Assembly (NCBI GenBank): GCA_016342685.1
Contig: JAEINU010000007.1
Location: forward strand, 62,001 to 126,000
Direction: 5' to 3'
Source: Bacteroidales bacterium
GTDB lineage: Bacteria; Bacteroidota; Bacteroidia; Bacteroidales; UBA12077
Length of the DNA: 64,000 nt
In this document: piece after piece, positions 931 to 13,193 of the stretch
Layout of the letters: every line of letters starts with the position of its first letter
Position numbering within the stretch: position 1 is the first letter of the stretch
Program-made: the position numbers and the translations under genes
Notes under the pieces: model-generated
The model's input: only the letters and a program-made list of their open reading frames with translations
Databases searched by the model: none
What the model was told of the DNA's origin: nothing

Positions 931-1932
931 ATGGTTTCAAATATTCTTAAAAGCAATCAGCCCACTGCGCTTATTTTAACAACTTTAATTGGACTAGGTT
1001 TATGGATTGGTTCATTTTTGACCCCAATCGGCATGAATATTCCTTCGGATTGCATGAACATGCCTTTTTATGAAATTCTAACAAATGGAATTAATAAAAA
1101 TCCATTGTTTGCCGTCATACTCACTTTTGTTTTGATTTTTGTTCAAGCTTTATTATTAATTCAATTCAATAAAAAGTTTATTGTTATTAATTTTAGAACT
1201 TATCTCCCTGCATTTTTTTATTTAATCATTGCTAGTAGTTTTACTCCTCTTCAGAGGCTTAATCCTGTGGTATTTGGAACACTTTTCATATATTTAGCTA
1301 TTTACTTTATCCTTAGTGTATATAGAACAGATTCTGCCATTGATAAAATATATATAGCAGGTTTTTTTATTTCAATAGCTTCTATGTTTTGGGCACCTTT
1401 TGCTGTATTCTTTTCTATTGTAATCCTTTCTTTAATCATTCTTAGACCTTTTATTGGCAGAGAATGGATAGTTAGTCTGTTAGGGTTTTTAACACCTTAT
1501 TTCTTTGTTTTTGTGTATTACTTTTCTTTTAAAAGTAGTGATGAGTTGGATAGATTGAGTTCGAATTTTTTTAATAGTTTTAATTTAATAAAGCAGTTTA
1601 ATCAGATTCATTATGCATATTATATATTCTATGGCTTATTGTTTCTTCTAATAGCAGCAGCCAGCATTTCTATGGTAAAGAATTTTCAAAAGAAAAAAAT
1701 TCGTATACGAAAGTTCTATGCAATAAATTGGTATGTATTTATTATTTCGATTTTAATATTTGTTTTTTTTGAAAATGTGGGATATGAAATCGTTTTCATA
1801 ATCGGTATGCCAATTTCTTTTCTTTTAACAGATTATTTTTATGCAATTAAACGAAATCGATATTTTAATATTGTATTATTAATTCTTTTTAGTTCATTAG
1901 TATACATACAAATAATAGCTCATAATATATGA
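931..1932 (+). CDS. Polytopic membrane protein, DUF6427-like
   Basis: A 333-residue integral membrane protein with about eight or nine hydrophobic segments separated by very short polar loops. It resembles the Bacteroidota family I know as DUF6427, often found next to purine or housekeeping genes. The function is unknown and no catalytic motif is visible. It starts 6 nt after purD, probably in the same transcript. Its stop codon (1930-1932) lies inside a long inverted repeat that probably terminates transcription. The family name is from memory; the membrane nature is seen directly. Confidence 0.85.
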   Translation: MVSNILKSNQPTALILTTLIGLGLWIGSFLTPIGMNIPSDCMNMPFYEILTNGINKNPLFAVILTFVLIFVQALLLIQFNKKFIVINFRTYLPAFFYLIIASSFTPLQRLNPVVFGTLFIYLAIYFILSVYRTDSAIDKIYIAGFFISIASMFWAPFAVFFSIVILSLIILRPFIGREWIVSLLGFLTPYFFVFVYYFSFKSSDELDRLSSNFFNSFNLIKQFNQIHYAYYIFYGLLFLLIAAASISMVKNFQKKKIRIRKFYAINWYVFIISILIFVFFENVGYEIVFIIGMPISFLLTDYFYAIKRNRYFNIVLLILFSSLVYIQIIAHNI

Positions 1933-1952
1933 GCTATTATTATTTGTATGTA
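1903..1952. terminator. Bidirectional hairpin overlapping a stop codon
   Basis: A 22-nt left arm (1903-1924) pairs with a right arm (1928-1952) apart from a 3-nt bulge, leaving a 3-nt loop. The hairpin covers the last codons and stop of the membrane protein gene and ends 10 nt before the stop of the minus-strand operon. It is AT-rich, with no long clean U tract. Its position between convergent genes suggests it terminates both transcripts. Confidence 0.6.
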
Positions 1953-1961
1953 AAGTGTTTT

Positions 1962-2411
1962 TTATAGTTTTCGAACAAAGGATAGTAAAGCTACTGCCAA
2001 GCCCTGCTGGCCTTCCTTAAATGTGATCATCATGTGATAAACACTGGTTGTTGAACATTTGAAAGAAACCTTTGGGTAATACTTTCCAGTGGCAATAATA
2101 TAATTTGTAGTAATTAAGCGATTATTGTCATAAAGCTTAAAAATTGCTTCTCCTTGAAAATCTTTTGAGTTACAAATGGAAAATAAGTATTCTGTATTTT
2201 TACTTAATACAATCGAATACCTTTGAATTGGAACTTCTTCACCTGGTTTCGCTGCATCAAGTTTAATTTGAAAGTCTTTAAGATACATTGCATCACCTGC
2301 AACCATATTGCAAATATCAACAAGTTCTTGCCCTGACTGTGCAAAAAGCTTATTGCTATTTCCAATTAAGAGGATTGCAAATAATACGAATAATATTTTT
2401 AGTTTTCTCAT
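1962..2411 (-). CDS. Small secreted protein of unknown function
   Basis: A 149-residue protein with a clear Sec signal peptide (basic start, hydrophobic core at residues 8-18, cleavage probably after LFA). The mature part is predicted beta-rich with two or three cysteines (near ICNM, ICNS and KCST), which could form a disulfide in the periplasm. I do not recognise the family. It starts 2 nt downstream of the lipoprotein gene and is the last gene of the minus-strand signalling operon. It may therefore act in the envelope with the ABC transporter, but that is inference from position only. Confidence 0.75.
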   Translation of the reverse strand: MRKLKILFVLFAILLIGNSNKLFAQSGQELVDICNMVAGDAMYLKDFQIKLDAAKPGEEVPIQRYSIVLSKNTEYLFSICNSKDFQGEAIFKLYDNNRLITTNYIIATGKYYPKVSFKCSTTSVYHMMITFKEGQQGLAVALLSFVRKL

Positions 2412-2413
2412 AT

Positions 2414-3334
2414 TTACAATTGTATTATTTTATTGCGAACTTCAATCGTTTTATCAACAATCTTAAAAAGAGTTTCGTTAGAAATATCGATAAACTGTTT
2501 GTCGTTTTGCTTAAAAACTAGCATGCCATCTTCCTCAATCATTTCGGGTTCACCTTTCTCATAAGTAATAGTAACTTCTCTAAAAAGAACCTGAATTTCT
2601 GTAAGATCTTCTATTAAACTTCTAAATTTTGGATCTTTATCATAATTCTTTAGCAAAAGCATTAAATTACCTAAGATAATTTGTTGTTCTCCAATTTTTT
2701 CTGAAAGTTCTGCATTTACTGAATCCGATTCTTTTATGGTCTTTCCTAATAAATACATACTTTCAATCCAAACACCTGTAACAATTAAAGAACTTAGATT
2801 ACTTCTATTGTTCTCACGCAAATATCGATCCATTTGGTTAAAATTCTGAACAGATATATACATTAAGGAGTCAAGGTTTTGATTATTACTAACTAATCTT
2901 TTAAGGGTTGTAAAATCAAAAAATTGCCCAACTCGAATACCATCAGCTAATGTTTTAATTGCAGAAATGTAATCTATAACCGAACCTGTTTTGTTATACA
3001 TATTTTGGTATCCCAAATCAGCACCAAAAACACCTAATCCTATGGCTTTTTTAAAATTGGTATTGTAATTATCAACATAGTCGGTTGTAGCTAAATAATT
3101 CTTAGAATAAGGAACTCCAACAGCCTTTATGAGAGCAGCTATTTCAACCGGCGATGATATGTTTTGAACAATATCATCCATTGCTTCTTCTGAAATTTGC
3201 AGGTTTCCATCGTATATTACCGAATCAGGAATATTAAATTCATCAGAAAAATCTGTATCTTTTGGTTTATTCGAACCGCCACAAGCTGTTAGAAATAATA
3301 AAGATAGTAGTATGTAAATCAATTGTTTATTCAT
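2414..3334 (-). CDS. Lipoprotein of unknown function
   Basis: A 306-residue protein with a type II signal peptide: MNKQ, a hydrophobic stretch, and the lipobox LTAC with the modified cysteine near residue 18. The mature part is mostly helical, starting with an acidic linker. I chose the ATG at 3334; a TTG two codons upstream is in frame but would only add two residues. The stop is 2 nt from the next gene, and the gene lies 66 nt after the TerB-ABC transporter. Context suggests an envelope component of that system. No family recognised. Confidence 0.8.
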   Translation of the reverse strand: MNKQLIYILLSLLFLTACGGSNKPKDTDFSDEFNIPDSVIYDGNLQISEEAMDDIVQNISSPVEIAALIKAVGVPYSKNYLATTDYVDNYNTNFKKAIGLGVFGADLGYQNMYNKTGSVIDYISAIKTLADGIRVGQFFDFTTLKRLVSNNQNLDSLMYISVQNFNQMDRYLRENNRSNLSSLIVTGVWIESMYLLGKTIKESDSVNAELSEKIGEQQIILGNLMLLLKNYDKDPKFRSLIEDLTEIQVLFREVTITYEKGEPEMIEEDGMLVFKQNDKQFIDISNETLFKIVDKTIEVRNKIIQL

Positions 3335-3406
3335 AGTCAATAATCTTGAGTTTCAATTATTTCCCAAATTAATCTTATCTCATAAAGATATAAAAATAAT
3401 CAATAT

Positions 3407-6400
3407 TTAGGAAAAATATTTCTTTAACTTAATCTTTTCGGGTAAATCAAGTAGTTTTTTTAATAAATTAAAGTACAATGTAACATAAAAGAATGCAGTA
3501 ATAACCCATATAAATAGTAAATTAAACCAGTATGTGTCGTGATACTTTCCTGCAAAATATTTACGTGGTGCAAAAAAGTGAGATCTGAAATTGAAATATC
3601 CCTCTATATCAGGATCTCGATATATTGGATCGACTTGTTGAATTAATTCATCTTTATATTGAATAATCTTATTTTTTTCGAATACTTTTTTGACCTGATC
3701 TTCAACACTTTCATTATGAAAAGCATTTCGCTTGCTTATGTATAATTCCGAATTTGTATTTAACAAGTAGCGTATAATATTCTCTTTCTCGTTATTCGCT
3801 TTTTGAAATATTAATGAATAGTAAGAATCGAGTTTCTCTATATATTCAATTGTATTGTCTAAGATAATTTCATTGAACAGGCTCGTGTCTAGCTGGTGTC
3901 CTGATGTAAATGGAATATTGGTTCTAATTTCTTCTTTCTGAAGTTCTGTTTTTAAGAGTTGTAAATCTTCTGTAATTATACGTTTAACTTCTAAATCTTC
4001 AGAGAATTTATACCAATTGCTTTCGATGTAATCAGTTTTCTTTTCAAGTTCTGGTAAATAATATACTTGTTTAAAATCTGCCGTGCTTTCTCTTTTCTCT
4101 ATTTCGAAGAAGGTCTTTTCAAATTCGTTATTCTTAAACTGGTTAACCATTAAAGCTTCGAAAGACCATTTTGTTGGCATAAATTCGGCAATAAATGGAA
4201 CCTTCTTTATGCTTCCAATTTTTCGATTCATTTTATCAAATGGAAACATAGCACCACTTAAAGTCATCATTGGAATCATTAAAAGTGGAATGAGTATATA
4301 AATTGTTACAGCTGAATTAAACGATGCGGAAACATTTAGTCCCAGCATATTAGCAAAAGCAGCAGTAGTAAAGAGGGCAAACCAATACTCAAAAGTCATT
4401 GCCCCAATTCCTAGTATATTATTTGCTATTAGTACGAACAATATTGCTTGTATTGCCGATATAGAGAACAATATAATAATTTTAGAAACGAGGTAACTAG
4501 ATTTACTTAAGTTCAGAAATGCTTCTCTTTTAAGAATTTTTCTGTCGCGAAATATTTCTTCGGCACTAACAGTAAGTCCCAGAAATAGTGCAACAATCAA
4601 ACTCATAAAAATATAAATAGGTATATTCTCATTCTCTCTAAAAATGTAAATATTTGAGCTTGGATCTGCAATATAACGTATAATAAATGCCAGAATAAAG
4701 CCTAATAATGGTGCTTCTAGTAAGTTTAGAGTAATATATTGAGTATTACTAATCTTGGATAAGAAATCACGGATTGTAAATATTTTTAGTTGTCGAAACC
4801 ATGAAGGAATACTTAGTGTTGATGGTGGTGCATCTTTAACCTGATGAACCTCATCAAGTTTAATGTTTTCTTGAAAGCTTTCTTCCCATTTTTGAGGTGA
4901 GATTTTTCGTTTAGGAGTATATCTACCAAACTCATCAACAACTTTTGCTTCAATAATATTAAAAATGTGTTCTGGATTAACATTTCCACAGGTTGTACAT
5001 TCTCCAACTTCACTGTTAATCTGGGCATCTAGTCGTTTAAAATACATTACACCTTCAACAGGGTTTCCATAATAAATCATGTAACCACCGGTGTCAAGTA
5101 TCATCATATTATCAAACATCTTATATATGTCTGATGACGGTTGGTGTATAACAACAAATATAAGTTTTCCTTTTAGAGCAAGTTCTCTTAAAAGGTCCAT
5201 TACATTTTCAGAATCCCTTGATGATAGTCCTGAAGTGGGTTCATCAACGAATAGAATGGAGGGTTCTCTAATTAATTCTAATGCAATATTTAAACGTTTT
5301 CGCTGTCCACCACTAATCATTTTGTTAAGCGGGGAGCCTACTTTTAGATCTTTTCGATCGAATAAACCAAGACTTGTAAGTGTTTTATGCACAAGTTCAA
5401 CAATTTCTTCTTCCGATTTATTGTTGAAACATAATTTTGCATTGTAGTATAGATTTTGAAAAACAGTTAATTCTTCAATTAATAAATCATCTTGAGGAAT
5501 ATAACCAATAACGCCTTCAATTTTATCTTTTTCTGAATGAAGATTAACTCCATTTATTAAAACTTCACCTGAACTAGGGGTGTTTAATCCAGCAAGAACG
5601 TTTAATAAAGTTGTTTTACCTGCTCCACTTGCACCCATCAATCCAATTAATTTTCCTTGATCTTCAGAAAAATTAATGTCTCTTAGACCAATACCGCCAT
5701 TGGGGAAAACAAAGTTTAAATCACGGGCAGTATAAGATATTTTAACAGAGGTTGAGTCTGCTAAGTAATGAGCTACAATATCGCTATAGTAAATTGGTTT
5801 GCCTTTGGGAAGTTTTATTGAACCCCCTCCAGCAAAAAGGTAAATGCGTTTATTGTTAACAGGCAATCCATTTAGGAAAAGATCTTCCTGACCATTATAA
5901 CGCATAAAATATAGATCAACACTTTTTACCTGCAAAATGAAGAGATTGCCATCCAACGCTTCTATTTTTACATGCTTACAGTTTTTGCATTGATTTTCTT
6001 GATCATTAATTATTAGGTTACTAGAATTGTCAAGTTTTGAGATTTCATTATAAATAACATAACTTTCAATTTCAAGAAACTCTTCTTTACTTAGCTTAAA
6101 TACTTCCGCAACAGTATTAATAATTGCCATTCGTTGTTCTGAAAATTTTCTGTCGGCGTTAACCAATTCAAATAAACGAACTAATACAATTACTTTTTGT
6201 TGCTGGGTTAATGTTTTGTTAATTTTCCTGCAAATACCTAAGATTCTTACCGAATCTTTAACTGAAGTTAATTTTATTTTGTCACTTTTTTCTACTTTTT
6301 CTCCTGTAAAGCCAGCTTTTTCATCAAACAAGGCGATATAGTCAGGAACAGCTTCATCATTTAATTGTTGAGTTAAAAAGTTTTTAACATATTCCCTTTC

Positions 6401-6478
6401 ATTTGATTCAACACCTGCATCTTGTTTCGCTATGATAGCAAACAATTGCATAAGGGCTTTTAAAATCTCTTCACTCAT
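3407..6478 (-). CDS. TerB-like domain fused to ABC-2 (ABCG-type) transporter
   Basis: A 1023-residue half-transporter. Residues 1-150 resemble a TerB/DjlA-like helical domain (an AKQD..ES.ERE motif near 18-29). Residues 165-245 form a small beta domain with a CxxC (CKNC), in the place where related proteins carry an FHA-like module. The ATPase follows: Walker A GASGAGKTT at 282-290, signature SGGQRKRL near 390, Walker B ILFVDEPTSGLS. A second CxxC (CTTC) follows the ATPase. The C-terminus has an ABC-2 permease with about six membrane segments and a large soluble insert before the last one. It lies 50 nt after the SiaC-type gene and may be the output of the operon's switch. Substrate unknown. 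Confidence 0.9.
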   Translation of the reverse strand: MSEEILKALMQLFAIIAKQDAGVESNEREYVKNFLTQQLNDEAVPDYIALFDEKAGFTGEKVEKSDKIKLTSVKDSVRILGICRKINKTLTQQQKVIVLVRLFELVNADRKFSEQRMAIINTVAEVFKLSKEEFLEIESYVIYNEISKLDNSSNLIINDQENQCKNCKHVKIEALDGNLFILQVKSVDLYFMRYNGQEDLFLNGLPVNNKRIYLFAGGGSIKLPKGKPIYYSDIVAHYLADSTSVKISYTARDLNFVFPNGGIGLRDINFSEDQGKLIGLMGASGAGKTTLLNVLAGLNTPSSGEVLINGVNLHSEKDKIEGVIGYIPQDDLLIEELTVFQNLYYNAKLCFNNKSEEEIVELVHKTLTSLGLFDRKDLKVGSPLNKMISGGQRKRLNIALELIREPSILFVDEPTSGLSSRDSENVMDLLRELALKGKLIFVVIHQPSSDIYKMFDNMMILDTGGYMIYYGNPVEGVMYFKRLDAQINSEVGECTTCGNVNPEHIFNIIEAKVVDEFGRYTPKRKISPQKWEESFQENIKLDEVHQVKDAPPSTLSIPSWFRQLKIFTIRDFLSKISNTQYITLNLLEAPLLGFILAFIIRYIADPSSNIYIFRENENIPIYIFMSLIVALFLGLTVSAEEIFRDRKILKREAFLNLSKSSYLVSKIIILFSISAIQAILFVLIANNILGIGAMTFEYWFALFTTAAFANMLGLNVSASFNSAVTIYILIPLLMIPMMTLSGAMFPFDKMNRKIGSIKKVPFIAEFMPTKWSFEALMVNQFKNNEFEKTFFEIEKRESTADFKQVYYLPELEKKTDYIESNWYKFSEDLEVKRIITEDLQLLKTELQKEEIRTNIPFTSGHQLDTSLFNEIILDNTIEYIEKLDSYYSLIFQKANNEKENIIRYLLNTNSELYISKRNAFHNESVEDQVKKVFEKNKIIQYKDELIQQVDPIYRDPDIEGYFNFRSHFFAPRKYFAGKYHDTYWFNLLFIWVITAFFYVTLYFNLLKKLLDLPEKIKLKKYFS

Positions 6479-6528
6479 AAAATTATGATTTTAAAAAATA
6501 ACAAAAGTGCAAAGTACACATTCTTAAT

Positions 6529-6909
6529 TTAAAGAGTATAACTCACTTGTTCAAATGGCACATCAACTATATCGGCATATTCTTCGCCAGCTTCTTCCAT
6601 GTCTTCATCGTCTTCAGGGAAAAACCATTTAATGAGAACTTCTTTTCCACTTTCGTGCATATCTTCAAGTTTCATTAAAATATCAAGAATTAACTTTGAT
6701 GAAGCGGTATTAAAGTATACGAGTTTAAATGTAAAAACCGTTTTGTCATTTGCCACATCTTGATAATCTTCAAGCCAATTTAAAATAGGCTCGTAGAACG
6801 TCGTTACGTCTTCAGGAAGAGATCTACCTGAAATTTCAAAAATCCCACTATCCTGATCAAGAATTATGGTTGGAGTATCGTCAGTTCCTTTGATCTTTAT
6901 TACTTCCAT
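6529..6909 (-). CDS. SiaC-family regulatory phosphoprotein (DUF1987)
   Basis: A 126-residue protein matching the SiaC/DUF1987 family. In Pseudomonas aeruginosa SiaC is phosphorylated on Thr68 by the SiaB kinase and dephosphorylated by the SiaA PP2C phosphatase; the unphosphorylated form binds and activates the SiaD diguanylate cyclase. Here the motif YFNTASSK puts a threonine at exactly residue 68. The C-terminus is strongly acidic (PEDDEDMEEAGEE). The kinase gene lies 18 nt upstream and the phosphatase gene precedes that. No SiaD-like gene is in the window, so the binding partner must differ or lie elsewhere. Confidence 0.9.
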   Translation of the reverse strand: MEVIKIKGTDDTPTIILDQDSGIFEISGRSLPEDVTTFYEPILNWLEDYQDVANDKTVFTFKLVYFNTASSKLILDILMKLEDMHESGKEVLIKWFFPEDDEDMEEAGEEYADIVDVPFEQVSYTL

Positions 6910-6927
6910 AGTATTATAATATTTTTA

Positions 6928-7503
6928 TTAAATATTTCTTGAAATTGATGATGTTAGTAAGAAGAATGAACTTCCCTCATCGATTGGTAAAAAGTGGAAT
7001 TCTAGCTTTTTACCTGTTTTACGAGCTATATCGATAAAACCAAGTCCGGCACCACCTTTTTCTGATAGTCGTCCTTCTTTCATTTGACTTTTGTAAAGCT
7101 CTTTTAATCCTTCCTTATCCAGTTCGTTGATGTGGTCAAGCATTTTGGTAAGTTCTTCGATTTTATCATTTTCAATAACATTTCCAGTTGTTACATGATA
7201 ATCTTCTTTTCCCTTACTTACCATAAAGATACCTCGGCCTGCAAATAGGAAATCATCTGATCCAAAAGAATCAGCATGCTTACTAATGTTTTGCAAACAC
7301 TCAACCATAACATGGAATACTTTCTTTTGCACAGAATTGGCTTCTGACTGTTTAGCCATATTTGATTCTGTCAAAGATGTAAAGGCTTTGGTAATTTGGT
7401 GCGTAATTTCACCTTCGTATACCAAGGTAATTTCGTGAGCTTTCATAGATCTGTAAAAATCATATACAAATTCTAGAAAGCCTTTTACATTACTTTTGTC
7501 CAT
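6928..7503 (-). CDS. SiaB-family GHKL-type protein kinase (DUF6272)
   Basis: A 191-residue protein resembling SiaB kinases, which have the GHKL ATPase fold of anti-sigma-factor kinases. The N-box reads ECLQNISKHA (Glu68, Asn72, His76) and the glycine-rich ATP lid is GGAGLGFIDIARK (150-162). It is expected to phosphorylate the SiaC-type protein encoded next (18 nt gap), opposing the PP2C phosphatase encoded 37 nt upstream. No receiver or sensor domain is present, so the input probably enters through the phosphatase. Assignment is from motifs and gene order. Confidence 0.88.
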   Translation of the reverse strand: MDKSNVKGFLEFVYDFYRSMKAHEITLVYEGEITHQITKAFTSLTESNMAKQSEANSVQKKVFHVMVECLQNISKHADSFGSDDFLFAGRGIFMVSKGKEDYHVTTGNVIENDKIEELTKMLDHINELDKEGLKELYKSQMKEGRLSEKGGAGLGFIDIARKTGKKLEFHFLPIDEGSSFFLLTSSISRNI

Positions 7504-7540
7504 AGGTTGTAAAATTAATATTTATTAAAATAATAAAAAA

Positions 7541-10150
7541 TTAAAATTCTATTCCAATTAATAACACATCGTCAATTTGCTTAGTGCTTCCTTTCCATTT
7601 TGTAAAATCAGACGAAAATAGATTGGAGTACTGTTCCATTGTAAATCCATTGTTCATTGTAATATTGTCTCTGATGCGCTGAGGTGAGTATTTTCGTCCT
7701 TCAGGACCGCCAACTTGATCTGGCAAGCCATCTGAAAAAATGAAAATCTTGTCACCCTTTTTAATATCAATTGTGTGATTTATAAAATCTTTTTCTGCTT
7801 TTTTTCTATGAGGTATCCCTCCAATTGCTTTTCTGTTGCCTTTGTATTCTAGCAATTCTTCGTTTCTTAATAAGAAGAGAGGGCGGTGTGCTCCTGCATA
7901 TTGCAATTGTTTGTTCTTCGGATCTATTCGACATAGTGCAATATCCATTCCGTCGCGAGCATCTGCATCTATTCTATCTTGTTTCAGGGTGGTTCTAACA
8001 CCAAAATGCAATTTGTCAAGAATTTGTCCTGCTGTGTAATTTACATCATGATCAACAATATTATTTAACTGAAAGTATCCAATAAATGATAACAAGGCAC
8101 CTGGTACTCCATGGCCTGTGCAATCTACTGCTGATATATAGATAATATCTTCTTTTTTGAAAAACCATGGAAAATCTCCACTTACAACATCTCTAGGTTT
8201 GTAAAAAATAAATGATTTTGGAAGATATTCTTGAATTATGGTATTACTAGGAAGGATCGATGTTTGAATTCGTTGCGCGTAATTTATACTTTCATTAATC
8301 TTTTTATTCTTATCTTTTATTTCAAGTTCAATCTTTTTAGCCTCGGTAATGTCATGACCAACAAACAGTATCGTTTCTAGTTCATTCTCATTGAACTCTG
8401 GAATTGCGTTAAAGCTCATTATTCTTATTCCCTTATTGGCTGTAGGAATTGTTAGTTCTTCGTTTAATTTTTGATTTGTTCTTCTAATGCTTTTAATAGA
8501 GTCTTTAAAAAAGTCAACTAATAAAGGTTCAATCTCTAAGTCATCAATTCTAGCATTAATTATATCTCCAGATTTTATACCAAGGAAATCATCGATCATT
8601 GGATTTGCATAAAAAAACTGACCTTTTGTATTCATTCGAAGAATTAAATCAAGACTATTTTCGGAAAGCGATTGCATTTTACTTTTCATTCGCTCTTCCT
8701 TTTCCGCACGTTTCCTTTCAGTAATATCTTGCGAATTTAATATGATTCCGCTTATAGCCTGATCGTTTAATAAGTTACGTCCAGTTGTTTCGATATGTAT
8801 TTTTTTGCCGTTTTTCTTAATATATGTGTACTGAATGGTTATTGGTGTAAAAGAATCTTCAAGTAGTTTCTCGAACATTTCTTTCATGGCAGCTTCACCT
8901 TTGGCAGTAAGTCTGTCCATATCTTTACCTCGCATCATTTCTTCTGGCGTATAACCTAATATTTGTGAAACAGATGGACTTTGATATTTTAATTTGATTT
9001 CACTATCGTAAATTGAAATAACCTCTGATGCATTTTCAAGCAGAGAATGAAGTCTCTTTTGTGCATTCTCAACTTCAGTAATTTGGGTTTCTAAATTTTT
9101 ATTCGAAATTTCAAGTTCTTCTTGAGTGGCACGCATTTCTTCTGCATTCTGACGCAACTGTTCTTCATTTGCTTTGAGCTCTTCTGTCATTTGCTGAGAC
9201 TCTAGTAAAAGTTTTTCAGTTGTTTGATTCATTCTCAGATTGTACAGCGTTCTAGCAATGATCTCTCCAAGTTCTTTAAGGAAATCAATTGTTAGTGGCG
9301 AAAACTCATCTTTTATTGAAGCAAATTCAAGAATCCCTTGTAGTTTTTCTTCAGTAACTAAAGGAACGGTTAATATACTGGAAGGTTTTCTGTCGCCAAG
9401 AATTCCAGATGTTATTGTAGCATAATCTTCAGGAATTTCTGTTCGATAAACAATATCTTGTTCGTATGCGCACTGACCAATTAACCCTTCACCAATTTTA
9501 AATTCTTGTGTTACATATCTTTTTCGATTATATGCATAGGTAGCAATGTTATGAAGCTTTTTATCTTCATCATCGTAAATGTAAAACGCTCCCTGAATAA
9601 CATCAATGTATTTTATCAGTTCAAGAATAACTTCATATGCAAGTTCATTAATATTATTATGCATTCGCAGTATATCCGATATGATATCTTTTCCTTCGGA
9701 AATCCAATTTTGTTCTTTTTCCTTTTTATTATTGGCTAATAAATTATCGCGCATTAAAAGGAGTGATTTTGCCAAGATATCGTTTTCGTCATTTATCTTG
9801 TCATCATCTTCATAATTCCCTTCTCCAATTTTTTTTGCAAGGGTAGCGTTCTTATTTATATTTTGATCTCTTAATTCAATAATGGCTTTAAAATCGTTTT
9901 TGTCACTTTCTCTTTTCTTAATAAAAAAGAAAATAATTAAACCAATTATGAAGGGAGCTAAATCTACAATCCAATGTATGGGATTGTTTATATGTATTTG
10001 TTTAATTGTAGAAAGGTTTACCGTTAAATTATTTGCAATGATATCTATCATCCATGATAGGAGTATAAAAATAAACGAGACGCTAACTCCAATAATTAAA
10101 TCATTATATGAAACTGCTTTTATTTGTGTCTTATTTTTTTTAATGACCAT
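7541..10150 (-). CDS. Membrane GAF-PAS-PAS-PP2C (SpoIIE-type) phosphatase
   Basis: An 869-residue sensor phosphatase, probably the SiaA-like member of the switch. Domains in order: two membrane segments (about 17-40 and 60-78), GAF (150-305), a glutamate-rich coiled coil (310-370), PAS (365-480), PAS (490-608), and SpoIIE-type PP2C (640-869). The metal-binding aspartates are present: RDVVSGDF (653-660), DCTGHGVPGA (676-685), DGMDIAL (733-739), FSDGLPDQ (805-812). P. aeruginosa SiaA instead has a HAMP-linked periplasmic sensor, so the input end differs. The GAF domain closely resembles that of the preceding gene product (10 nt gap). Expected substrate: the phosphorylated SiaC-type protein. Confidence 0.92.
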   Translation of the reverse strand: MVIKKNKTQIKAVSYNDLIIGVSVSFIFILLSWMIDIIANNLTVNLSTIKQIHINNPIHWIVDLAPFIIGLIIFFFIKKRESDKNDFKAIIELRDQNINKNATLAKKIGEGNYEDDDKINDENDILAKSLLLMRDNLLANNKKEKEQNWISEGKDIISDILRMHNNINELAYEVILELIKYIDVIQGAFYIYDDEDKKLHNIATYAYNRKRYVTQEFKIGEGLIGQCAYEQDIVYRTEIPEDYATITSGILGDRKPSSILTVPLVTEEKLQGILEFASIKDEFSPLTIDFLKELGEIIARTLYNLRMNQTTEKLLLESQQMTEELKANEEQLRQNAEEMRATQEELEISNKNLETQITEVENAQKRLHSLLENASEVISIYDSEIKLKYQSPSVSQILGYTPEEMMRGKDMDRLTAKGEAAMKEMFEKLLEDSFTPITIQYTYIKKNGKKIHIETTGRNLLNDQAISGIILNSQDITERKRAEKEERMKSKMQSLSENSLDLILRMNTKGQFFYANPMIDDFLGIKSGDIINARIDDLEIEPLLVDFFKDSIKSIRRTNQKLNEELTIPTANKGIRIMSFNAIPEFNENELETILFVGHDITEAKKIELEIKDKNKKINESINYAQRIQTSILPSNTIIQEYLPKSFIFYKPRDVVSGDFPWFFKKEDIIYISAVDCTGHGVPGALLSFIGYFQLNNIVDHDVNYTAGQILDKLHFGVRTTLKQDRIDADARDGMDIALCRIDPKNKQLQYAGAHRPLFLLRNEELLEYKGNRKAIGGIPHRKKAEKDFINHTIDIKKGDKIFIFSDGLPDQVGGPEGRKYSPQRIRDNITMNNGFTMEQYSNLFSSDFTKWKGSTKQIDDVLLIGIEF

Positions 10151-10160
10151 TTTAAATAAT

Positions 10161-10925
10161 TTAATACTTACTTAAAGTTTTGCCTAATACGTCAGAAATT
10201 TTTTCGAAAAGGGCATTAAACTTATGTTCAAATTCTTTAAAGGATGCAAACTCAAAAACACCAATAGTTTCATCATTAAAAATTATTGGAATAATTAGTA
10301 AATTTTTGGGCGAACTGCTACCTAAACCTGATAATATAGTTACGTAGTTTTCAGGAATATCTTTTAAGTTTAGTATGGTTTTGTTTTTAGCAACCTGACC
10401 TGAAAGAGACTCTCCAAGTTTAAAATCACGAGGTTCTTCTTCGCCAAAGTATGCATATTTACCAGTGTTTTTAAATAGATCTGATTCTTTTTCTTTTAGA
10501 AAAAATAAACCTTGAACAATATCAAATTCTTTAGCAAAGTTGCTTAGTAATTTCTCTGTGTATTTAACATGATCAAACTTTGCACTTTCTTTTGGTATAA
10601 TTTTTTTAATATATACTTCCGTATCTATACTTTCACTTATTTCATCTTCTGCAATGCTGCTATCGGTATTGTCATTATCTAAAAAATGAATTTCTTCAAT
10701 TAAAGTCTCTTCATTTTTATTTCCTGTTACAATAAACACCAGAATAAATAGAACTGTTGCTAAAGCAATTGATGCAATTATTAAAACAAGTAATGTTTTT
10801 TCGTCGGCAATAATATTGTTATCAAGAATGAGGTTTTTGATTTTTCCAAAAAGCACAAACGCAACAGCCAACTCTAATGTTAGGGCAATTAAGGCTATTA
10901 TTTTATATATCTTAAAATTATTCAT
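10161..10925 (-). CDS. Membrane-anchored GAF domain protein
   Basis: A 254-residue protein with two membrane segments (about 7-30 and 45-67), an acidic linker (70-105) and a C-terminal GAF domain. Its GAF is clearly paralogous to that of the following phosphatase: GESLSGQ versus GEGLIGQ, IPENYVTILSG versus IPEDYATITSG, then a shared (V/I)FEFASxK(E/D)EF-like stretch. It has no catalytic domain, so it could be a ligand sensor, a dimerisation partner or a competitor for the phosphatase. It sits 9 nt from cheB and 10 nt from the phosphatase gene. Ligand unknown. Confidence 0.85.
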   Translation of the reverse strand: MNNFKIYKIIALIALTLELAVAFVLFGKIKNLILDNNIIADEKTLLVLIIASIALATVLFILVFIVTGNKNEETLIEEIHFLDNDNTDSSIAEDEISESIDTEVYIKKIIPKESAKFDHVKYTEKLLSNFAKEFDIVQGLFFLKEKESDLFKNTGKYAYFGEEEPRDFKLGESLSGQVAKNKTILNLKDIPENYVTILSGLGSSSPKNLLIIPIIFNDETIGVFEFASFKEFEHKFNALFEKISDVLGKTLSKY

Positions 10926-10934
10926 GAATTAATA

Positions 10935-11492
10935 TCATTTTAACTTTAATAAAAAGTTGATAATTTGCTGCGTTGTAAATATGTGATCTACTGATGTTAA
11001 CTTAAGAGATGCTTCGGTCATTGTTCTTACCTGACATTCATTTGGGTCTTGTACAATTGCTGTACCACCAAGTTGTTTTAATTTCTTTAAACCATGAGCT
11101 CCATCTCGATTTGCTCCAGACAATATTATTCCAATAATTTTATCTCGGTAAGCTTGTGCCGCAGTTTCAAAAGTTAAGTCGATCGATGGACGAGAATGGT
11201 TAACAGGCTCTTCTGTTGATAAAGCTATTCTTTTGTTTAGTTCAACATACATATGATAATTCGATGGAGCAAGGTATCCTCTTCCTGGTTTTATTGTTTC
11301 TTTATCATAAGGTTCAACAATTGGTATTTTAGATTTGATTGAAAGAGCCTCAACGAATCCAGATCGCACATGTTTAAGCCGGTGAAGACTTAAAAGCACA
11401 GGTAATGGAAAATCTTTAGGTAAAGAACTTAAAATTTTTGTTATTACCTGAAAACTTCCAGCGGATCCGCCTATAACAACTGCCTTATACAT
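10935..11492 (-). CDS. cheB: CheB-type protein-glutamate methylesterase, no receiver domain
   Basis: A 185-residue stand-alone CheB catalytic domain. The expected triad is Ser10 (GGSAGS), His37 (SLHRLKH) and Asp130 (SGANRDGAHG). The conserved RPSIDLTF segment is also present. Classical CheB carries an N-terminal receiver phosphorylated by CheA; here it is missing, so activity cannot be gated that way. It would remove methyl groups from glutamates methylated by the CheR encoded upstream. No chemoreceptor, CheA or CheW is in the window. Gaps of 9 nt on both sides suggest tight co-expression. Confidence 0.9.
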   Translation of the reverse strand: MYKAVVIGGSAGSFQVITKILSSLPKDFPLPVLLSLHRLKHVRSGFVEALSIKSKIPIVEPYDKETIKPGRGYLAPSNYHMYVELNKRIALSTEEPVNHSRPSIDLTFETAAQAYRDKIIGIILSGANRDGAHGLKKLKQLGGTAIVQDPNECQVRTMTEASLKLTSVDHIFTTQQIINFLLKLK

Positions 11493-11501
11493 GTATACTA
11501 T

Positions 11502-12332
11502 TTATGATAATTTCTTTTTATAAATACTTTCAGACTTATTAACTAATGTATAATCCTTATCTGAATTCCAGTATTCAATTTTCTCATTGTTTCCAATAAT
11601 CAAATGTCCTGCCGGAATCAAACAATTATACAGAATTTTAATAAATCTCTCCTGTAAAATCTGATTATAATAAATCATGTGATTTCGGAACAGGATTAAT
11701 CTTACCCCTTTAGGATAATCATCAAATATAATATTTTGTTTGATAAATTTTGTATTCTTAATTAAAGAAGTATCCCATTGGGCTTTTTCGCCATCAAAGC
11801 TGTAAAAATCGGACAAATTTGATTCACTATAAATGCGTTTAAAATTTACATCGTTTGTTTCGATTTTTTTAGGATCAAAATATCCGTTTTTTATATTTTC
11901 AAGATTAATTTCACTAACGCTTGAAACTATAAAGCTCACTTTATCTAATAAATTTAGTTTCCTTAATATTATAGAAATTGAAAATAATTCTTCACCTGTA
12001 GAAACTTCTGGAAACCATATTTTAAAATTTGAAGTGCTGTTAACAAGCTTCGTAAGCATGTCGTCATTTAAAATTCTCCAAAGAGCTGGGTCACGAAACA
12101 TTTCTGTAGTATCAACACATATCTCTTTTAAGAAAAGTTCGAAAAATTCTTTTTCTAATTCAATTTTTTTAATAAACCCATCTGCGTCTTTTAAAGCATA
12201 TTTTTGAATTACTTTTTCAACTCTTCGCTTAAAAAAAGTTAAGGCGTAGTTTTTAAAGTCATAATTATAAACATCTTGCAATGTTTTAATTATGTTTCTT
12301 GTATCAACTATACCTAATTCGTATTTATTCAT
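11502..12332 (-). CDS. CheR-like protein, probably inactive paralogue
   Basis: A 276-residue protein aligned over its length with the CheR encoded 21 nt upstream. The N-terminal helical domain and the STGEE part of motif I survive. The loop before it reads FPEV rather than HAGC (residues 107-110). The acidic residue after the second strand, which in CheR enzymes contacts the S-adenosylmethionine ribose, is Ser138 here but Asp133 in the paralogue. The CRNVIIYF motif has become FRNHMIYY. These changes suggest reduced or lost methyltransfer and a regulatory or scaffold role, though altered specificity is possible. Confidence 0.8.
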   Translation of the reverse strand: MNKYELGIVDTRNIIKTLQDVYNYDFKNYALTFFKRRVEKVIQKYALKDADGFIKKIELEKEFFELFLKEICVDTTEMFRDPALWRILNDDMLTKLVNSTSNFKIWFPEVSTGEELFSISIILRKLNLLDKVSFIVSSVSEINLENIKNGYFDPKKIETNDVNFKRIYSESNLSDFYSFDGEKAQWDTSLIKNTKFIKQNIIFDDYPKGVRLILFRNHMIYYNQILQERFIKILYNCLIPAGHLIIGNNEKIEYWNSDKDYTLVNKSESIYKKKLS

Positions 12333-12353
12333 TTCTTAATTAAATTTCAGCTT

Positions 12354-13193
12354 TTATTTTTTTCTATATGCTTGACCCTTTTTCTCAAATCGTGATGTAA
12401 TTTCTCCCAACATGGTTTCATGCATACCTAAAACTAAATACCCATTGGTATATAAATGATCGTGGAAAAGTTTAAAAACTTTATTCTGTAAACTATATTT
12501 AAAATAAATTATTACGTTTCTACACAAGATTAAATCGAATTTTGCAAAATATAGATTCCCACCTTGCACTAAATCGTGTTGTCTAAAGATAGGTTTCTTC
12601 TTTAGGAAATCATTAATAGCAATGGTATCAGTAACTTTATCAATTTTAAAATATTTATCATATGATACATCGTTGTACTCATCGTAATTGTATGGATTCT
12701 CTTTTATTACTTTATCAAAATTATCGAGATAGCCGATGTTAAAACGGTATTTATAAATTCCTTTTTTTGCAGCTTCGAGAGCATCAGTATTTAAGTCACT
12801 TGCAAATATTTTTGCTTTATCGAGCATTCCCATTTCATTCAATAAAATCATCATTGAATACACTTCCTGCCCTGTAGAACATCCTGCATGCCAGATATTT
12901 ATGTTTCTGTTTCCGGAAAATTTAGGAAGTATTCTATAACGTAATGTTTGCCAGATTTGAGGATCGCGAAAAAGTTCTGTTGTATTAACGGTAATGTCTT
13001 TTACGATTTTTTCAAGGAAATCTTTATTTGTCTTTAATTTGTTTATTAAAGCAACAAGATCCATATTGTTGTCGATCAGGATTTTTTGCAAACGACGCTT
13101 TAGTGATTTTTCTGAATATTCACTAAAATCGTAACTTGACGTGTTTCTTATTGTATTTATAAAGTAGTTGACTTCTTGATCTGTTAGAACCAT
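12354..13193 (-). CDS. cheR: CheR-type protein-glutamate O-methyltransferase
   Basis: A 279-residue methyltransferase with the full CheR layout: helical N-domain with a paired arginine (KRRLQK near 32-37), TTELFRDP, motif I WHAGCSTGQE (101-110), FASD with Asp133, and LILCRNVIIYF (221-231). CheR transfers methyl groups from S-adenosylmethionine to glutamates of signalling coiled coils. It is the first gene of the ten-gene minus-strand run. No chemoreceptor is nearby, so its substrate is unknown; the glutamate-rich coiled coil of the PP2C phosphatase in the same operon is a candidate (inference). Confidence 0.93.
   Translation of the reverse strand: MVLTDQEVNYFINTIRNTSSYDFSEYSEKSLKRRLQKILIDNNMDLVALINKLKTNKDFLEKIVKDITVNTTELFRDPQIWQTLRYRILPKFSGNRNINIWHAGCSTGQEVYSMMILLNEMGMLDKAKIFASDLNTDALEAAKKGIYKYRFNIGYLDNFDKVIKENPYNYDEYNDVSYDKYFKIDKVTDTIAINDFLKKKPIFRQHDLVQGGNLYFAKFDLILCRNVIIYFKYSLQNKVFKLFHDHLYTNGYLVLGMHETMLGEITSRFEKKGQAYRKK

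Follow-up and report, generated by a model that had tools for sequence, protein, structure and literature searches.

The window examined here, a stretch of 64,000 nucleotides (nt) from a Bacteroidales assembly (GCA_016342685.1, contig JAEINU010000007.1), carries at positions 1962–13193 a string of ten minus-strand open reading frames (ORFs) in which CheR- and CheB-type protein methylation genes, the genes of a SiaABC-type partner switch, an ATP-binding cassette (ABC) transporter, a predicted lipoprotein and a predicted secreted protein lie side by side. The genome to which the window belongs (G000) measures 4.77 Mb, and the cluster sits on its contig 3. In the ORF list of the window, the gaps between the ten genes are, from left to right, 2, 66, 50, 18, 37, 10, 9, 9 and 21 nt, in agreement with the preliminary description made from the DNA sequence, and the family names that it gave to the genes are supported by Pfam and NCBIfam matches. 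In the reading direction of the minus strand, the genes are:

12354..13193, minus strand: CheR1, CheR-type methyltransferase (PF01739, 2.4e-39)
11502..12332, minus strand: CheR2, diverged CheR paralogue (PF01739, 1.2e-20)
10935..11492, minus strand: CheB, methylesterase domain only (PF01339, CheB_methylest, 9e-50)
10161..10925, minus strand: membrane GAF protein (GAF_2, 1.2e-7; hydrophobic segments 9–27 and 45–63)
7541..10150, minus strand: SiaA-like phosphatase with two hydrophobic segments and GAF-PAS-PAS-PP2C/SpoIIE (SpoIIE PF07228, 1.3e-14)
6928..7503, minus strand: SiaB-family kinase, DUF6272 (NF038262, 177 bits, cut-off 85)
6529..6909, minus strand: SiaC-type switch protein with Thr68 in YFNTASS (PF09345, 2.4e-41)
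3407..6478, minus strand: transporter with TerB, FHA-like fold, ABC ATPase and ABCG-type membrane domain
2414..3340, minus strand: predicted lipoprotein with Cys20 (lipobox-like N-terminus)
1962..2411, minus strand: predicted secreted protein with signal peptide (hydrophobic N-terminus, 6–24)

The ten-gene string is real, lies where it had been located and is conserved. Gene order was compared at the best 80 of at least 521 confirmed loci, found by a profile search of genome contigs with an alignment of 21 SiaB sequences; as these named loci were chosen as the best by SiaB, the sample is tilted towards conserved loci and close relatives, and only recognised genes were scored. At 63 of the 70 loci that extend 5.6 kb or more beyond SiaB, which we count as having room downstream, the genes run SiaB, SiaC, transporter, lipoprotein, secreted protein; the other seven comprise three with the same genes but one of them doubled or split, one without a recognised SiaC and three without the transporter. 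Upstream, where room was defined as at least 7.5 kb before SiaB, CheB, the GAF protein, PP2C and at least one CheR are found on the same strand at 45 of 69 loci, and all ten families are present at 35 of the 64 loci with room on both sides, sometimes with an extra sensor gene among them. Spacing is tight throughout the named loci, with 300 nt or less between SiaB and SiaC (78 of 78 pairs), transporter and lipoprotein (70 of 70), CheR2 and CheB (47 of 47) and lipoprotein and secreted protein (69 of 69). The genes flanking the cluster in the window recur rarely at loci with room, those downstream in 4/60 and 10/60 and those upstream in 2/63, 4/63 and 9/63, the outermost of which may fall outside the fetched 10 kb at loci with an additional sensor gene. 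Set against this rare recurrence, a core order kept at 63 of 70 loci indicates conservation of the cluster beyond chance.

By SiaB, the nearest named relative among the best 80 is 'Bacteroidetes bacterium GWB2_32_14', with 95% identity. Further away, three genomes from another family of the same class (L123, L124 and L125), whose SiaB is 40 to 45% identical, retain nine genes of the cluster, with one CheR instead of two. Named carriers that include the Che genes are Anaerophaga thermohalophila and Labilibacter marinus, and Carboxylicivirga strains carry the SiaB-SiaC-transporter part only. The preliminary description had proposed checking gene order in relatives and would have counted a lack of conservation there as refuting its idea; the check was run, and the idea survives it, the order being conserved across many families.

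A promoter scan was uninformative (48 promoter-like sites against 61.2 in shuffled sequences, with Bacteroidota promoters outside the coverage of the scan), as was a terminator scan (4 terminator-like sites against 3.5 in shuffles). At window positions 1911–1941, a 14-pair inverted repeat separates the cluster from a convergent plus-strand membrane gene; it is possibly a shared terminator, a kind of site that is not in excess over shuffles.

A partner switch controls biofilm formation in Pseudomonas. In P. aeruginosa, according to two reports, SiaB phosphorylates SiaC at T68, SiaA dephosphorylates it, and SiaC without phosphate binds and activates the diguanylate cyclase SiaD (PMC7647112, PMC8457831). 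In the window, SiaC scores 140.6 bits against PF09345 (cut-off 24.5), and its Thr68 aligns with the NTS motif of the P. aeruginosa SiaC chain 6kko_C and is present in 77 of 79 relatives. The kinase matches PDB 6kko_A at 1.5e-15, and its ATP-site residues are kept in 77–79 of 79 relatives (Glu68, Asn72 and Gly151/153/155 in 79 of 79); the metal-site residues Asp659, Asp676, Asp807 and Asp860 of the phosphatase are kept in all 68. For the PP2C protein, as for the CheB, CheR and ABC proteins below, the residues followed are those that we take to be functionally important. All parts of a SiaABC partner switch can be recognised by sequence, namely a SiaC with Thr68, a SiaB-family kinase and a membrane PP2C phosphatase, and the scores against the SiaA, SiaB and SiaC equivalog models lie below their cut-offs (166.7/700, 89.1/225 and 91.4/150 bits). 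The absence of SiaD, pointed out in the preliminary description for the ten genes, extends to the whole window genome, where GGDEF has zero matches. In a sample of 19 genomes hand-picked among the fetched cluster loci, GGDEF gave a single match in each of two (G655 and G609) and none in the other 17; control of SiaD or another diguanylate cyclase can therefore not be the general output of the switch.

Switch proteins also occur outside the cluster. SiaC domains lie elsewhere in the window genome, for example at C23:160652, C9:1292133-1292996 and C9:378932. About 70 kb from the cluster on the same contig, two fused SiaB domains (377 amino acids) are followed by a SiaC (G000:C3:145259-146734, L129:7757-9274); the same arrangement is found in G045 (L139:4708-6195), and L153 and L156 hold double-length SiaB proteins.

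The transporter combines TerB (residues ~1–149), an FHA-like fold (~150–240), ABC_tran (265–416) and ABC2_membrane (562–781), with a long segment separating hydrophobic stretches at ~740 and ~985; its TerB-FHA region is encoded by window positions 5693–6478 on the minus strand. Checked residues of the ATPase (Walker A and B, signature and H-loop) are kept in 69 of 69 relatives, and ABCG1, ABCG2 and ABCG5 are among the PDB matches. With the ATPase ahead of the membrane domain in one chain, the protein has the features of a predicted ABCG-type exporter, and its direction of transport would be outward. In a structure model of residues 1–262 (predicted local distance difference test score, pLDDT, 85; predicted template modelling score, pTM, 0.80), a helical TerB domain precedes a beta domain. 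The TerB part matches the TerB-like structures 2h5n (Z 8.9) and 2ou3 (Z 8.2). Matches to the beta domain are mainly FHA domains (Foldseek E 0.02 or worse, Z 7.8 or less), among them FHA1 of Rad53 (1g6g_B; VIA Z 7.7, 81 aligned residues, 2.3 Å, where a Z below 8 possibly reflects a common arrangement), and the match list, two TerB-like rows aside, consists of proteins titled or otherwise known as FHA proteins. As modelled, the beta domain is FHA-like, and binding of phosphothreonine would be a step beyond the fold.

All 48 aligned sequences of the predicted lipoprotein have Cys20; the gene is listed with a TTG start, and its real start may be the ATG two codons on. Its structure model (pLDDT 87) is mostly helical and has no convincing match in PDB (Foldseek best E 1.3; VIA best Z 6.4), a known fold being still conceivable. 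Neither the lipoprotein nor the secreted protein has a Pfam match at E ≤ 0.01. The pair of genes is also found without a recognised TerB-FHA transporter in the fetched 14–20 kb (L256, L257, L260, L262, L270 and L274), so the two proteins may have a function of their own.

The association between SiaC and the transporter goes beyond the cluster. In a survey of 395 genomes of the class Bacteroidia, with up to 11 SiaC counted per genome and genome sizes rounded, the TerB-FHA region is present in 189 and SiaC in 213; 180 genomes have both, 9 the transporter only, 33 SiaC only and 173 neither, so that SiaC accompanies the transporter in 180/189 genomes against 33/206 of those without it. At the genus level, going by the listed genus codes, SiaC is present in about 82 of the 90 genera with the transporter. 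Of the 206 genomes in which the lipoprotein family was detected, 184 have the transporter. We also fetched 60 transporter loci, picked by hand from the listed transporter rows with already fetched loci skipped and two genomes represented twice, a sample biased towards closer relatives in which several loci end at contig ends. SiaC was recognised at 12 of them and the lipoprotein at 51. Random placement would put SiaC at about 1.06 of the 60 loci (P 4e-10 if independent), and in the window genome 3 of 5 transporter copies adjoin SiaC (chance 6e-4, same assumptions), values that overstate the evidence and to that extent detract from it, since related genomes are not independent. Outside these counts, further SiaC and transporter pairs lie ~7–20 kb apart on one contig (e.g. 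G333:C10, G605:C4 and G411:C10).

Where the two genes are neighbours, they occur in the operon order, with SiaB-SiaC convergent to lipoprotein, secreted protein and transporter, or with the transporter followed by SiaC (L138). Moreover, a TerB-FHA region without the ATPase is fused to SiaC at L146 and L147 (one genus) and at L158 (another family). Trees were built from every fourth named locus, with near-identical loci of the same genus dropped; that of the transporter is a quick FastTree without the window's own copy. It contains a mostly operon-linked group (44 of 51 rows), a second group in which SiaC is convergent or not neighbouring (61 of 63) and three diverged rows. The SiaC tree, in which many forks are weak and several branches long and uncertain, separates an operon group (48 of 50) from a convergent group (11 of 11), with 5 operon rows and 1 convergent row outside both. 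Two deep transporter lineages thus appear to pair with two SiaC lineages. Taken from genomics, these data suggest that the transporter is a target of SiaC.

Regarding the methylation genes, the S-adenosylmethionine and catalytic positions checked in CheR1 (Asp133, Arg76 and Asn226) are each kept in 46 of 46 relatives. At the column of CheR1 Asp133, an Asp that binds S-adenosylmethionine, the CheR2 of the window has Ser, and Asp is found in only 2 of 45 relatives, so that CheR2 is probably degenerate and not an active methyltransferase. The triad of CheB is kept (Ser10 48/49, His37 49/49, Asp130 49/49), and no receiver domain was found in it by Pfam. The ten genes include no methyl-accepting chemotaxis protein (MCP), CheA or CheW by Pfam and NCBIfam, as the preliminary description had it, CheA and CheW not having been searched genome-wide. 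In 11 of the 19 sampled cluster genomes (G660, G677, G681, G687, G146, G049, G186, G562, G609, G309 and G433), all at least 90% complete, no MCP match was obtained, and the cluster of each includes CheR and CheB; in these bacteria, the substrate of the two enzymes is therefore something else, perhaps a GAF/PAS sensor. In relatives, an extra sensor gene lies between the two CheR genes at 18 of 69 loci and directly before them at 11. The five tested (L166, L177, L185, L191 and L220) contain GAF in every case, PAS in four and HAMP in one; a histidine kinase had been expected, and none of the five has a kinase or MCP domain (E ≤ 0.001). The window cluster lacks such a gene, which leaves the membrane GAF protein or the sensor part of the phosphatase as candidates for methylation there. 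At L211, L212, L215, L220, L221, L231, L232, L233 and L236, a second CheB gene and a sensor of GAF/PAS type stand ahead of the cluster, and the one second CheB tested (L220) carries a receiver domain.

The best explanation of the whole, to which we give roughly even chances of being right, is a partner switch of the SiaABC type with an ABC exporter, rather than a diguanylate cyclase, as its output. From what was observed, namely the families and order of the genes, the conserved active sites, the co-occurrence and the fusions, we infer all of the interactions, the way in which control runs, the protein that is methylated and an exported substance. The SiaB-type kinase would phosphorylate SiaC at Thr68, and the SiaA-type membrane phosphatase would strip the phosphate once its GAF/PAS sensors are engaged. 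Unphosphorylated SiaC would bind the N-terminal TerB-FHA-like region of the transporter and alter its activity, and phosphorylation of Thr68 would free it again, a release expected by analogy with SiaABCD of P. aeruginosa (PMC8457831, PMC7647112). The lipoprotein and the secreted protein may act together with the transporter. On the input side, a GAF/PAS membrane sensor encoded in the cluster would be methylated by CheR1 and demethylated by CheB, which would set the sensitivity of the input; besides the two candidates in the window, the extra sensor of relatives may be the methylated protein.

The preliminary description had joined all these parts in one pathway from methylation through the switch to the transporter. 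Its second half is the better supported, with co-occurrence, varied arrangements and fusions linking switch and transporter; the first half, in which methylation feeds the switch, follows from gene order and is weaker, so that a single pathway, in which CheR and CheB adapt a non-chemotactic GAF/PAS sensor that sets SiaC phosphorylation and thereby gates the exporter via TerB-FHA, is put forward only tentatively. CheR and CheB are a frequent, not a constant, part of the input.

Several observations weigh against an exporter-coupled switch fed by methylation. At 24 of 69 loci, SiaB is not preceded by a full Che-GAF-PP2C block on its own strand: some of these loci have no block, some carry it adjacent to the core on the opposite strand, and one has CheR-CheR-CheB without GAF and PP2C. 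SiaB and SiaC occur without the transporter at 3 of 70 loci (L186, L226 and L228), and at L203, L214, L216 and L217 SiaB, SiaC and transporter have no recognised PP2C gene beside them. No SiaC was recognised at 48 of the 60 fetched transporter loci, several of which are truncated by the end of a contig. Of the 189 genomes with the transporter, 9 gave no match to SiaC, and SiaC is found in 33 genomes that lack the transporter. Finally, 12 of the 15 SiaC domains of the window genome, which include one tandem pair, are not beside this type of transporter, which implies that SiaC has other partners, probably of several kinds in one cell.

It is possible, though less likely than not, that two units travel together, SiaABC and the transporter forming one pathway and the CheR/CheB/GAF block a separate module that acts elsewhere. 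The block does lie on the opposite strand next door at L146, L147, L192 (divergent) and L191 (convergent), and it is missing at other loci where the core stays. However, it remains adjacent in all four opposite-strand cases, and the same-strand upstream order with small gaps at 45 of 69 loci speaks for a connection.

We consider it unlikely that the transporter is merely co-transcribed and that the target of SiaC lies elsewhere, for instance in an anti-sigma-like pathway or another enzyme. This would accord with the absence of a neighbouring SiaC at many transporter loci and with the SiaC domains located away from such transporters, but it leaves the TerB-FHA-SiaC fusions, the varied adjacent arrangements, the co-occurrence and the matching lineages unaccounted for.

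Also doubtful, and distinctly so, is a recruitment that depends on phosphorylation, in which the FHA-like domain would read Thr68-phosphorylated SiaC, the reverse of the logic in P. aeruginosa. An FHA-like fold beside a protein that is phosphorylated on Thr68 in that species invites the idea, and the transporter Rv1747, reportedly in an operon with pknF, offers a precedent. Nevertheless, a Pfam search of the N-terminal region of the window transporter at E ≤ 1 gives TerB alone and no FHA, FHA is not among 25 of the 34 Pfam families listed for 40 members of the region, and the canonical Arg/Ser motif is not conserved there. Because the profile is unmatched and the motif not kept, phosphothreonine reading is treated here as an alternative to binding of unphosphorylated SiaC. 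That CheR1 and CheB modify ordinary chemoreceptors encoded elsewhere is very improbable. In its favour, MCPsignal is matched 10 times in the window genome, which also contains two more CheR genes, and 8 of the 19 cluster genomes have MCPs; against it, the other 11 keep the cluster CheR and CheB with no MCPsignal match, and the window CheB has no detected receiver domain.

If the single pathway from methylation to exporter is correct, chemotaxis-style adaptation would be used for membrane export, spread over Bacteroidales. The data suggest that in many of these bacteria the switch gates export. SiaC (DUF1987) domains are widespread and have been proposed to modulate neighbouring proteins, and SiaD is the only SiaC target that we found described (PMC8457831). 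A second type of target would be a transporter present in 189 of 395 genomes of the class; gene order, co-occurrence and fusion all point to it, and the bacteria concerned mostly have no GGDEF match (17 of 19 tested). The cluster also provides natural cases of CheR and CheB without a detected chemoreceptor, in 11 of 19 genomes. No earlier description of the cluster was found in the open literature, where DUF1987 or DUF6272 is named in one paper, subscription papers being mostly outside the search.

Among known systems, the cluster resembles SiaABCD of P. aeruginosa in having a PP2C phosphatase, a SiaB-family kinase and a SiaC with Thr68 encoded side by side. It differs in that the window genome has no GGDEF match, the TerB-FHA-ABC transporter follows SiaC, CheR and CheB lie upstream, the phosphatase carries GAF-PAS-PAS sensors and the SiaA, SiaB and SiaC equivalog scores are below cut-off. 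Rv1747, reportedly an ABC transporter with FHA domains encoded in an operon with the Ser/Thr kinase gene pknF, shares the combination of an ABC transporter and an FHA-type domain beside a kinase gene, whereas here the kinase is of the SiaB type, SiaC, PP2C and TerB are present and the FHA motif residues are not conserved. Wsp, Frz and Dif are chemosensory pathways with alternative functions that keep MCP, CheA and CheW. The cluster is like them in using CheR and CheB outside flagellar chemotaxis, and unlike them in having no MCP, CheA or CheW among its ten genes and occurring in 11 of 19 genomes with MCP unmatched.

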